Positions 3,905 through 6,615 of a stretch of 64,000 nucleotides of DNA are shown here, in pieces. How positions within the stretch are numbered: the stretch's first letter is position 1; each line of letters opens with the position of its first letter. The translations under genes and the position numbers were made by a program. Below the pieces are notes generated by a model that was not told where the DNA came from, searched no databases, and saw only the letters and a list, made by a program, of their open reading frames with translations. Source of the stretch: Bordetella genomosp. 5 (GTDB lineage Bacteria > Pseudomonadota > Gammaproteobacteria > Burkholderiales > Burkholderiaceae_B); assembly GCF_002261475.1 (NCBI RefSeq), contig NZ_NEVN01000004.1, forward strand, positions 620,001 through 684,000, written 5' to 3'.

Positions 3905-4495
3905 ATGTCCCGTAATCGTTTCGCACTGCGCAGCACGCTGGCCGGCCTGGCCATGGTCATTTCCGCTGGCGCCGTCGTTGCGCCGGCCGTGGCTGCCCCG
4001 CAAGAAGGCAAGCCTGCCGCCGAAGCCCATCACAAGGGTCCGCGCCACCACGGTGAAATGCGCGACGGCGCATTCATCCCGGGCGTGGGACCGCTTTCCA
4101 AGGCTCAGATCGACGCGCTCAAGCTCGACGCCAAGCAGCAGGCGCTGTTCGACACCGCCAAGAAGTCGCAGGGCGAGCTCATGAAGCAGCGTTTCGAGGC
4201 CAAGCGCGCCGAGCATAAGCTGCTGCAGGAGCAGCTCGCCGCCGGCAAGCTCGACCCGCGTGCGCTGTCCGCCGCCAACGAGAAGGGCCGCGACCAGTTC
4301 GGTACCGAAGGCGGCAAGGTGCGCGATCAATGGCTGGCCCTCTGGGACAGCCTGAACGACGCGCAGCGCGCCCAGGTCACCGAAGTGGTGAAGGCCCGTG
4401 CCGCCAAGATGCAGGAGCGCATGGCCAAGGCTCCGCACCATCGCGGCGCGCCCGGTGCCCCTGGCGCTCCCGGCGCACCCGCCGCCACCAACTGA
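3905..4495 (+). CDS. Spy/CpxP-like periplasmic protein
   Basis: This 196-residue protein has a clear signal peptide (positively charged start, hydrophobic stretch, cleavage near AVAAPQEG). A His-rich patch (AHHKGPRHHGEMRDG) and a long Ala/Lys/Glu-rich helical region resembling Spy/CpxP/Zra periplasmic chaperones follow. It ends in a GAPGAPGAPGAP tail. Spy-type proteins bind unfolded proteins or metals under envelope stress; that role is inferred here from general features, because the diagnostic LTxxQ repeats are only weakly visible (for example LSKAQIDAL and LNDAQRAQV). The ribosome site AGGAG is at 3892-3896. A GAAACTT element at 3838-3844 resembles a sigmaE -35 box, without a convincing -10. 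A strong terminator follows. Confidence 0.72.
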   Translation: MSRNRFALRSTLAGLAMVISAGAVVAPAVAAPQEGKPAAEAHHKGPRHHGEMRDGAFIPGVGPLSKAQIDALKLDAKQQALFDTAKKSQGELMKQRFEAKRAEHKLLQEQLAAGKLDPRALSAANEKGRDQFGTEGGKVRDQWLALWDSLNDAQRAQVTEVVKARAAKMQERMAKAPHHRGAPGAPGAPGAPAATN

Positions 4496-4515
4496 TCCTC
4501 ACCCTCTGGGTCTCG

Positions 4516-4543
4516 ATGCCCCGGCGCAAGCCGGGGCATTTTT
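4516..4543 (+). terminator. rho-independent terminator after the Spy-like gene
   Basis: A perfect 10-bp stem (ATGCCCCGGC / GCCGGGGCAT) with a GCAA loop is followed by five T. It lies 20 bp past the Spy-like stop codon. Confidence 0.9.
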
Positions 4544-4590
4544 CATGGGCGCGCGCGCCGTGCCTCGCGATGCCTGTTTATGGCGCGGGC

Positions 4591-4650
4591 TGCGCCATGA
4601 AGGCGCATGCAGACCGGGGATCTGGCGGGCTTTTGCACCGCGCCGGTGCG
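4591..4650 (+). promoter_or_regulatory. two NtrC-like enhancer dyads upstream of torF
   Basis: Site 1 at 4591-4607 is TGCGCC-N5-GGCGCA, a perfect dyad. Site 2 at 4634-4650 is TGCACC-N5-GGTGCG, which matches the NtrC consensus GCAC-N7-GTGC exactly. Their centres are 43 bp apart, about four helical turns, and lie roughly 90-130 bp upstream of the start site expected from the sigma54 promoter at 4703. Spacing and arrangement fit a nitrogen-regulated enhancer. This is inference from sequence. Confidence 0.7.
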
Positions 4651-4702
4651 CGCCGGGTCGTGCCGCGTTTGCCGGCTACCGTATGACGCAATTGTTAAAA
4701 GT

Positions 4703-4719
4703 TGGCATGGAAAGTGCTT
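4703..4719 (+). promoter_or_regulatory. sigma54 (-24/-12) promoter of torF
   Basis: TGGCATG-GAAA-GTGCTT matches the RpoN consensus TGGCACG-N4-TTGCWT with the invariant GG and GC exactly 12 bp apart. Predicted transcription start is about 4730, giving a leader of nearly 100 nt before the porin start codon. Confidence 0.78.
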
Positions 4720-4826
4720 GAGCCAGGATGGGCCGATCGGGGAGGGGAGCAGTGCCGCGATCGGCTGGACAGGCGTGATGCGCAGCCCACATCCGCCCTG
4801 GTAGCCATCCCATCAGGATCTCGCAA

Positions 4827-5576
4827 ATGAAAAAGTCCTTTCTTGCCCTGCCGTTCGTTTTTGCCGCATGTGCCGCCACCGCGCAGGCCGAACCCACCGA
4901 CCTCGGCGCCGGCTTCTCCCTCAGTGGCAACGCCGCCATCGTGAGCGACTACCGTTTCCGTGGCTACTCGCAGACGGACTTCCGGCCGGCCGTGCAGGTC
5001 GGCTTCGATCTGGCGCACAGTTCGGGCTTCTATCTCGGCAACTGGAACTCCAACGTCTCGAGTTTCGTGTTCACCGACGGCAATCTGGAAATGGACTTCT
5101 ACGGCGGCTGGAAGGGCGACGTGGGCGGCGGCCTCGGGCTGGACGTCGGCGTGCTGCACTACTACTACCCGGGCTCGAGCTCGCCCAAAGGCGGCAACTA
5201 CAACAACACGGATCTGTACGTGGGCCTGAGCTACGCCAACTATTCGTTGAAGTATTCCTACACGCCCAGCGACTTCTTCTCCGCGCCCGATACCAAAGGC
5301 ACCTGGTATCTCGATGGCACGGCCACGTTCGACCTGGGCGACGGCTGGGGTCTGGTCGGCCACCTGGGCTACCAGAAGCTCAAGAAGCAGGTCGACATGG
5401 ACGGCGATGGCATCGGCCACTACGTCGACTACAAGCTGGGTGTCACCAAGGACCTGAAGGGCTGGGTCGTGGGCCTGGCCGCCGTCGGCGCCACCAAGGA
5501 CAACTGGCTGCCCACGAAGTATGGCCATCCCTCGGGCCGGCTGGGTGCGGTGTTCTCGGTGTCGCGCGCGTTCTGA
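4827..5576 (+). CDS. TorF-family putative outer-membrane porin
   Basis: This 249-residue outer-membrane protein belongs to the TorF/Gcw_chp family. A signal peptide ends at AATAQA-EPTD. The mature part begins GFSLSGNAAIVSDYRFRGYSQ, the family signature, and continues as alternating aromatic/Gly-rich beta strands (for example FYGGWKGDVGGGLGLDVGVLHYYYPG). It ends in a Phe (VSRAF), as outer-membrane barrels do. Family members are often found near glnK-amtB. Its sigma54 promoter and NtrC-like sites suggest it is made under nitrogen limitation and could admit a nitrogen source; the substrate is unknown. The ribosome site is AGGA at 4815-4818. Confidence 0.85.
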   Translation: MKKSFLALPFVFAACAATAQAEPTDLGAGFSLSGNAAIVSDYRFRGYSQTDFRPAVQVGFDLAHSSGFYLGNWNSNVSSFVFTDGNLEMDFYGGWKGDVGGGLGLDVGVLHYYYPGSSSPKGGNYNNTDLYVGLSYANYSLKYSYTPSDFFSAPDTKGTWYLDGTATFDLGDGWGLVGHLGYQKLKKQVDMDGDGIGHYVDYKLGVTKDLKGWVVGLAAVGATKDNWLPTKYGHPSGRLGAVFSVSRAF

Positions 5577-5685: not shown

Positions 5686-6615
5686 TCAGACCGGCACGGC
5701 CCGCCGCCGTGGCCCGTGGCCCGGTGCGCCCGCCGCGTGCGCGTCGTGCAGACACTCGATAAAACACCGGGCCGCCGGCGTGGGCGGCGAGTCGGCCCGC
5801 GTCAGGATGGCCACGCGCGCCGCCGGCAGCGCGTGCGCGAGCGGCACCATGCGCAGTCCGCGCGGCAGCAAACGATGCTCGAACAGATTGCGCACGAAGA
5901 TGCCCAGCGCATCGCTCTCGGCGATGATGGCGAGCGCCACCGCGATCGACTGGCACGCGATGATGTCCTGCGGCGCGGGCAGTCCATGCGCCGCGAAGGC
6001 TTCCCGCAGCAGGTTGGCCGGCGCCTGGATGTTGCCCGGCAACAGCCACAGCGCGTGATGCAGTTCGCTCAGGTGCCGGGCATCGCGTAAAGGATGACCG
6101 GCGCGCGCGCCGACCGCGAGCGGCAGCGCGAACAGCGTGCTGCGGGCGAAGCCGTCCTGGATTTCTCCGTCGTATTCCGTCTGCACCAGAAAGTCGTAAT
6201 GGCCTGCCTCGAGCTGGTCGTGGCTATACGGCGGGGCGACCTCATTGAACGAGACCGCCACGCGCGGCATGCGGGCGCGGAACGCCGCCAGTGCCGCGGG
6301 CAGCACGGTGAGAGCGGCGGAGCTGATGGCGAGATTGAGCGTGCCGCCCGCGCCATCGCGCATCTGGGCGATTTCTTCCTGGGCCCGGCGCGCCTCCTGC
6401 AACATGAGCACCGCGCGCTTGTACAGCGCCTCGCCGTAGGGCGTGAGTTCGATGCCGCGGACGCTGCGCTGGACCAGTTCGGCGCCCACGCTGGCTTCGA
6501 GCTCCCGCAGGCTGCGCGTCGCCGCCGGCTGCGTGATGAACAGAGCGCGGGCCGCCGCGCGGATGCTGCCGTGTTCGGCGATGAGCACGAAGGCGCGTAG
6601 TTGGCGCAGATTCAT
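5686..6615 (-). CDS. LysR-family transcriptional regulator
   Basis: This is a 309-residue LysR-type activator/repressor. An N-terminal winged helix-turn-helix (residues 1-60, MNLRQLRAFVLIAEHGSIRA to ATRSLRELEASVG) is followed by a type 2 periplasmic-binding-protein-like effector domain. It is transcribed divergently from the MHS transporter gene 149 bp away and very likely controls it together with the downstream DUF2817 gene. The effector is unknown. AGGA lies 9 nt before the ATG. The C-terminus ends in a basic low-complexity tail (GHGPRRRAVPV). Confidence 0.9.
   Translation of the reverse strand: MNLRQLRAFVLIAEHGSIRAAARALFITQPAATRSLRELEASVGAELVQRSVRGIELTPYGEALYKRAVLMLQEARRAQEEIAQMRDGAGGTLNLAISSAALTVLPAALAAFRARMPRVAVSFNEVAPPYSHDQLEAGHYDFLVQTEYDGEIQDGFARSTLFALPLAVGARAGHPLRDARHLSELHHALWLLPGNIQAPANLLREAFAAHGLPAPQDIIACQSIAVALAIIAESDALGIFVRNLFEHRLLPRGLRMVPLAHALPAARVAILTRADSPPTPAARCFIECLHDAHAAGAPGHGPRRRAVPV

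Follow-up and report, generated by a model that had tools for sequence, protein, structure and literature searches.

The stretch upstream of torF in Bordetella genomosp. 5 carries a sigma54 -24/-12 element preceded by two NtrC-like dyads and, judged from its sequence, is very likely a standard NtrC-activated sigma54 promoter. Since this nitrogen-starvation switch is kept in nearly all of the relatives examined, it suggests that the cell makes the TorF channel when nitrogen is scarce. The regulation of torF is ordinary in kind; its bearing is that a widespread porin family would be tied to nitrogen starvation by a conserved promoter architecture, both where the gene stands alone and where it heads an operon. 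This opens the question of whether an outer-membrane channel limits nitrogen scavenging.

Promoter architecture and the torF product

The features discussed here lie in a 64-kb window, i.e., the whole stretch of DNA that was analyzed, and are collected in Table 1. Throughout the analysis, TGGCACG-N4-TTGCW served as the sigma54 consensus and TGCACC-N5-GGTGCA as the consensus of the NtrC site. The promoter element TGGCATGGAAAGTGCT departs from the former twice (C to T in the -24 block and T to G before TGC), its -12 element reading GTGC and not TTGC, while the proximal dyad agrees with the NtrC consensus at 11 of 12 positions and the distal one at 10 of 12. The centers of the two dyads are 43 bp, or about 4.1 helical turns, apart. 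A first-pass annotation had described a sigma54 element with a GG/GC spacing of 12 as well as two dyads with this distance between their centers, about 90-130 bp upstream, and both descriptions hold, the centers lying at -87 and -130 from the inferred start. The length of 17 bp given there applies to the full site, whereas the GCAC-N7-GTGC core itself spans 15 bp.

Table 1. Features of the torF promoter region (window coordinates)
Feature	Position	Strand	Remarks
Probable intrinsic terminator of the upstream gene	4515-4540	+	-23.7 kcal/mol, z -5.02, followed by a U run
Distal NtrC-like dyad, TGCGCC-ATGAA-GGCGCA	4591-4607	.	center about -130; perfect dyad
Proximal NtrC-like dyad, TGCACC-GCGCC-GGTGCG	4634-4650	.	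center about -87
sigma54 -24/-12 promoter, TGGCATG-N5-TGCT = TGGCATGGAAAGTGCT	4703-4718	+	GG to GC 12 bp apart
Inferred transcription start	4729	+	12 nt after the C of the -12 GC (sigma54 rule)
Inverted repeat, possible mRNA stem-loop near the 5' end of the leader	4731-4765	+	RNAalifold, 37 leaders
torF, TorF-family (Gcw_chp) putative outer-membrane barrel, 249 aa	4827-5576	+	TIGR02001, PF09694

The idea that the promoter serves another gene was rejected because both the stop of the upstream gene and a strong terminator-like hairpin come before the promoter, and the first gene after it in its own direction is torF. This hairpin is absent from the list of the consensus scan. The sigma70 promoter scan returned no promoter between 4400 and 5800, and no Rfam match at gathering level was obtained for 4400-5000. 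At 4581-4597 there is an additional perfect 6-N5-6 dyad, TGGCGC-N5-GCGCCA, which shares bases with the distal enhancer; it is not NtrC-like and probably due to chance.

The assignment of the gene product to the TorF family, likewise proposed in the first-pass annotation, is borne out by a TIGR02001 match of 164.7 bits (cut-off 47.15) over positions 1-244 of 244 and a PF09694 match of 175.1 bits over positions 6-230 of 230. The torF leader comprises 98 nt from the inferred start and has AGGA ahead of the ATG. As the next gene, a LysR regulator gene (ORF 5686-6615), lies on the opposite strand, torF stands alone, and its message would be monocistronic. By model only, TorF is predicted to be an outer-membrane beta-barrel: the AlphaFold2 model (pLDDT 95.9) lists 13 strand segments, the first of which is only four residues long, so that about 12 barrel strands are to be counted. 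In fold the model is nearest to the NanC/KdgM porins, which are 12-stranded and monomeric; the fold is similar, but the identity amounts to 8-13% and there is no match in sequence. Correspondingly, a sequence search of the PDB found no related protein, the one match (E 0.3) being a transcriptional regulator. Upstream of the promoter, a small secreted-type gene (3914-4495) has no Pfam or NCBIfam match at E 0.001, and 42 of the 46 Bordetella/Achromobacter/Corticimicrobacter loci among the best 79 related loci described below have a gene resembling it ahead of torF.

In the window, the torF site is the single exact match to TGGCAYGN5TGCW. Matches with up to two mismatches number 71, below the shuffle mean of 95.65, and thus only the exact match carries weight. 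An NtrC-like score of at least 10/12 is reached at only nine window positions, two of which are the torF dyads, and the sole score of 11 is that at 4634. Perfect 6-N5-6 dyads are common in the window (59, at 68% GC), so the GCGC dyad taken alone is weak evidence; it is backed by its position, the nearest relative (L114) having TGCGCC-N5-GGCGCA at the same -130. In this relative both dyads stand at -87 and -130 with changed spacers. In the 5.2-Mb genome, the sigma54 pattern yields 22 exact matches vs. 12 for the reversed-pattern control, and perfect GCACCN5GGTGC dyads number 40 vs. 3 for the control. Five of the 22 sigma54 sites have a perfect dyad centered 40-250 bp upstream, compared with 0.035 expected under an even spread. 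Because several of the 22 sites (e.g., L004, L005, L016, and L018) look coding or unrelated, the pattern alone is no proof, and the evidence lies in gene company and conservation.

Conservation and gene order among relatives

The scan of related genomes for conserved sites, which had been proposed as a check on the promoter, was carried out on the best 79 of 281 related torF loci, each reaching up to 5 kb to either side and some less. The strict pattern TGGCA[CT][GA]N5TGC, sought within 300 bp upstream of torF, occurs in 75 of these 79 loci as compared with about 0.24 in shuffles; the counts are not independent since many of the loci are close kin. Divided by taxon, the pattern is found in 45 of the 46 Bordetella/Achromobacter/Corticimicrobacter loci (shuffle mean 0.13, maximum 1) and in 30 of the 33 others (shuffle mean 0.11, maximum 2), and it never occurs on the reverse strand upstream in the same 79. 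The four loci in which it is missing are L100, L126, L128, and L130. An NtrC-like dyad of at least 10/12 is present between -160 and -50 in 61 of the 75 pattern-bearing loci (shuffles 1.26, maximum 4) and one of at least 11/12 in 19 (shuffles 0.18), leaving 14 of the 75 with no dyad of at least 10/12.

Across the relatives, the dyads shift by whole helix turns, their centers clustering near -54, -65, -76, -87, -97, -118, -130, and -141. The 28 distinct dyad positions give a vector strength R of 0.56 at 10.5 bp. Not one of 20,000 random draws gave a value this high; the draws are a lenient control because even distinct positions come in neighboring runs. When periods from 7 to 15 bp are compared, 10.9 bp fits best.

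An orthologue of torF with at least 77% identity was found in 10 of 15 genomes of the genus and not found in the other five, two of which are incomplete. TorF proteins of some kind occur in 164 of 268 genomes of the family (E to 1e-20) and in 139 of 250 evenly drawn genomes of the order (E to 1e-30). That the promoter is a feature of all TorF genes was rejected, seven of nine loci of a distant TorF type in the genus having no strict sigma54 pattern. The remaining two (L051 and L052, in genomes G008 and G012) have a strict sigma54 site with dyads of only 9/12, one at -88 in each; no torF orthologue is present in these genomes, and it is possible that the distant TorF takes over the torF role there. 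The window's genome also encodes a second, distant TorF (L002, G000:C9:344745-345398), which is 41% identical, has no strict sigma54 site and adjoins ORFs that by eye resemble two-component regulator genes.

The first-pass annotation had further linked TorF-like porins to glnK-amtB, and the gene order of the relatives agrees with this. Outside Bordetella/Achromobacter/Corticimicrobacter, 25 of the 33 loci among the best 79 have the order torF-glnK-amtB with torF first; glnK follows torF within 226 bp in all 25, and amtB is next in 24, the locus L121 ending first. No glnK was seen in the other eight (L103-L106, L108, L128, L130, and L132). Within the 46 Bordetella/Achromobacter/Corticimicrobacter loci, glnK is never adjacent to torF, and only one of them (L073) has it about 4.9 kb downstream. 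A TorF tree of 44 rows was computed from the window protein, 36 of the 79 loci and seven distant paralogues, the midpoint root serving for drawing only. Here, the window falls into a lone clade of 15 rows (support 100/99), which is placed among operon rows (Pigmentiphaga, Verticiella, and others) and includes five of the eight outside loci with no glnK seen. The closest operon neighbor of this clade is weakly placed (81/63). As the lone arrangement requires three changes on the tree, it probably arose more than once. Probably, the operon is the older form, and torF left it and kept its control. The glnK-amtB genes of the window's genome have their own sigma54 site, and thus both halves appear to be still under the same control.

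The probable nitrogen regulon and related operons

The genome encodes ntrC (620.6 bits vs. a cut-off of 558.6), on the strand of glnA and about 2.6 kb past the start of that gene, and two copies of rpoN above cut-off (G000:C12:118294-119760 and G000:C10:3114-4484). The C12 copy of rpoN is preceded by a sigma54-type site (L023), and a gene for an NtrC-type regulator lies close by (C12:121409). A sigma54 site combined with a perfect dyad occurs at torF, at glnA (L021) and at three further loci: an NMT1/SsuA-type ABC binding-protein gene (L011), a peptide-type binding-protein gene (L020), and an ABM-domain gene (L012) that has no plain nitrogen role. The context AAAAGTTGGCATGG-N4-TGCTTGA is common to torF, glnK-amtB (L022), and L011. 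Moreover, urtA and an allophanate hydrolase gene, both above the NCBIfam cut-offs, lie behind sigma54 sites, as do genes for family-3 and branched-chain-type binding proteins, an amidase, an ATP-grasp protein, and RpoN, together with an aldehyde dehydrogenase gene (L019) that has no plain nitrogen role. The membership of torF in the nitrogen-starvation regulon, as put forward in the first-pass annotation, thus gains support from the company of glnA, glnK-amtB, and nitrogen-scavenging genes and from the conservation of the promoter. On contig G000:C9, at about 162 kb, urtA and the allophanate hydrolase gene are arranged back to back with a separate sigma54 site for each (L014/L015), forming a compact urea-use control region.

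In architecture, the torF promoter resembles those of glnA and glnK in the same genome, each with a sigma54 site and two upstream dyads. The dyads of glnA lie at -86/-119 and those of glnK-amtB, which are imperfect, at -97/-130, i.e., about three turns apart, whereas those of torF are about four turns apart. In addition, the torF promoter differs by its -12 GTGC and by driving a porin-family gene, in contrast to an enzyme and an ammonium channel. The glnAp2 promoter of E. coli has a sigma54 -24/-12 site with two upstream NtrC-like dyads, as seen here at glnA and glnK.

A close parallel for the operon form is the nlmA-glnK-amtB operon of Herbaspirillum seropedicae, which, according to the accessible part of the source, is NtrC-dependent: nitrogen limitation raised the expression of an amtB::lacZ fusion 21-fold. 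The same source, of 2011, found NlmA in membrane extracts and called it most probably periplasmic (PMC3023670). In the accessible part of a further source, Hsero_0083 ('membrane protein', 98251-99039), glnK (99052-99390), and amtB (99406-100938) are up 15-, 43-, and 20-fold in rice roots (PMC6646362). The genome G413 contains a TIGR02001 gene (95952-96731), then, beyond a gap of 12 nt, a glnK of 339 bp and, 15 nt further on, amtB, with a sigma54 site upstream of the operon. Because it shares both gaps and the length of glnK with the operon as printed for H. seropedicae in these partly accessible sources (torF 780/789 bp, amtB 1536/1533 bp), H. seropedicae NlmA is, on this comparison of gene layouts, very probably a TorF-family protein. 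Hence the unexplained first gene of this operon may encode a porin-family barrel; the accessible text places NlmA most probably in the periplasm, whereas the family fold predicted here is an outer-membrane-type barrel. The G413 TorF is 37% identical to the window TorF (113 bits), compared with 44% and 153 bits for the second TorF of the window's genome and 151 bits for the TorF of the Pigmentiphaga operon. Since it is nearer to the second TorF, the NtrC data available in print concern a family member and perhaps not a strict orthologue. Moreover, in this NtrC-dependent operon, as far as the sources are accessible, the membrane-protein gene comes first and torF is joined to glnK-amtB, in contrast to the lone torF of the window.

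Among the papers matched, as far as their text is accessible and with subscription literature thinly covered, there was no study of TorF in nitrogen starvation and no functional study of the TorF porin family. The accessible part of an NtrC study of B. cenocepacia lists several porins, none of which could be tied to TorF.

Probable nitrogen-dependent control and the possible role of TorF

Starting from the computed sites, their conservation, the regulon company, the predicted barrel, and the lone clade among operon rows, we infer the following order of events. When nitrogen is short, phosphorylated NtrC would bind both dyads, whose spacing of about four turns puts them on the same face of the helix. 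Bound NtrC would oligomerize, loop to RNA polymerase-sigma54 waiting at the -24/-12 element and open the complex, and transcription would start near 4729, giving a message for torF alone. The product may act as a monomer, forming an outer-membrane channel with about 12 strands, which would raise the permeability to small nitrogen-bearing solutes and feed the inner-membrane importers (AmtB and those for urea, amino acids, and peptide-type substrates) whose genes this genome carries behind sigma54 sites. The lone torF would derive from a split of the torF-glnK-amtB operon, both halves keeping their own sigma54/NtrC promoters. Of these steps, the import of nitrogen-bearing solutes through TorF is plausible from the gene company and is favored with modest confidence.

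The substrate is where an alternative is to be taken most seriously: the nitrogen-controlled promoter could be real and TorF nevertheless serve to remodel the outer membrane during starvation (stress, sieve size, or waste exit) with no nitrogen import. This is considered the less probable role, as the recurrent operon with glnK-amtB (25 of the 33 outside loci among the best 79) and the nitrogen importers behind further sigma54 sites argue against it. In a narrower version of the import role, TorF might be a dedicated outer-membrane partner of AmtB which passes ammonium or small nitrogenous solutes at very low supply, though this is rather unlikely. It is an equally doubtful extension that such a channel ancestrally belonged within the betaproteobacterial glnK-amtB operon and is active where general porins limit uptake. 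If it were true, H. seropedicae NlmA, given as a probable periplasmic protein in the accessible part of the source, would be such a channel.

With regard to the activator, an enhancer-binding protein other than NtrC could be the main driver of the sigma54 promoter, NtrC contributing little or nothing. At least two more NtrC-type regulators are encoded (387.5 and 382.9 bits, under the ntrC cut-off) and 14 of the 75 pattern-bearing relatives have no strong NtrC dyad, but the torF dyads fit the NtrC consensus, take positions like those at glnA and glnK in the window's genome and have an NtrC-like counterpart in 61 of the 75, which makes such an activator improbable. Chance matches in GC-rich DNA, for which the 59 perfect dyads in 64 kb and the lack of enrichment with two mismatches allowed might speak, would predict loss of the pattern in most relatives, the opposite of the 75 of 79 loci found against about 0.24 in shuffles and of the helical phasing of the dyads, and have a negligible probability. 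Activation of torF by NtrC at the sigma54 promoter thus stays the preferred reading and is supported about as well as sequence data allow.

Downstream of the start, the inverted repeat of the leader recurs as GCCGGY...RCCGGY in many relatives. For its alignment, 10 of 47 leaders were omitted, nine of them as long, divergent, or near-duplicate (L073, L076, L091, L092, L094, L096, L097, L098, and L101) and that of L100 as its promoter misses the strict pattern. In the resulting 37-leader alignment, 95.0% of the stem cells are paired. Only five of 46 single leaders beat their shuffles at p ≤ 0.05, and the whole leader of the window is not more stable than shuffles (z 0.82). Nine stem cells are changed on both sides, a number equaled in 30 of 500 shuffles, and the covariation score is as high in five of 500. 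The covariation is modest, and the repeat might be either a stem-loop at the 5' end of the mRNA or an operator in the DNA.
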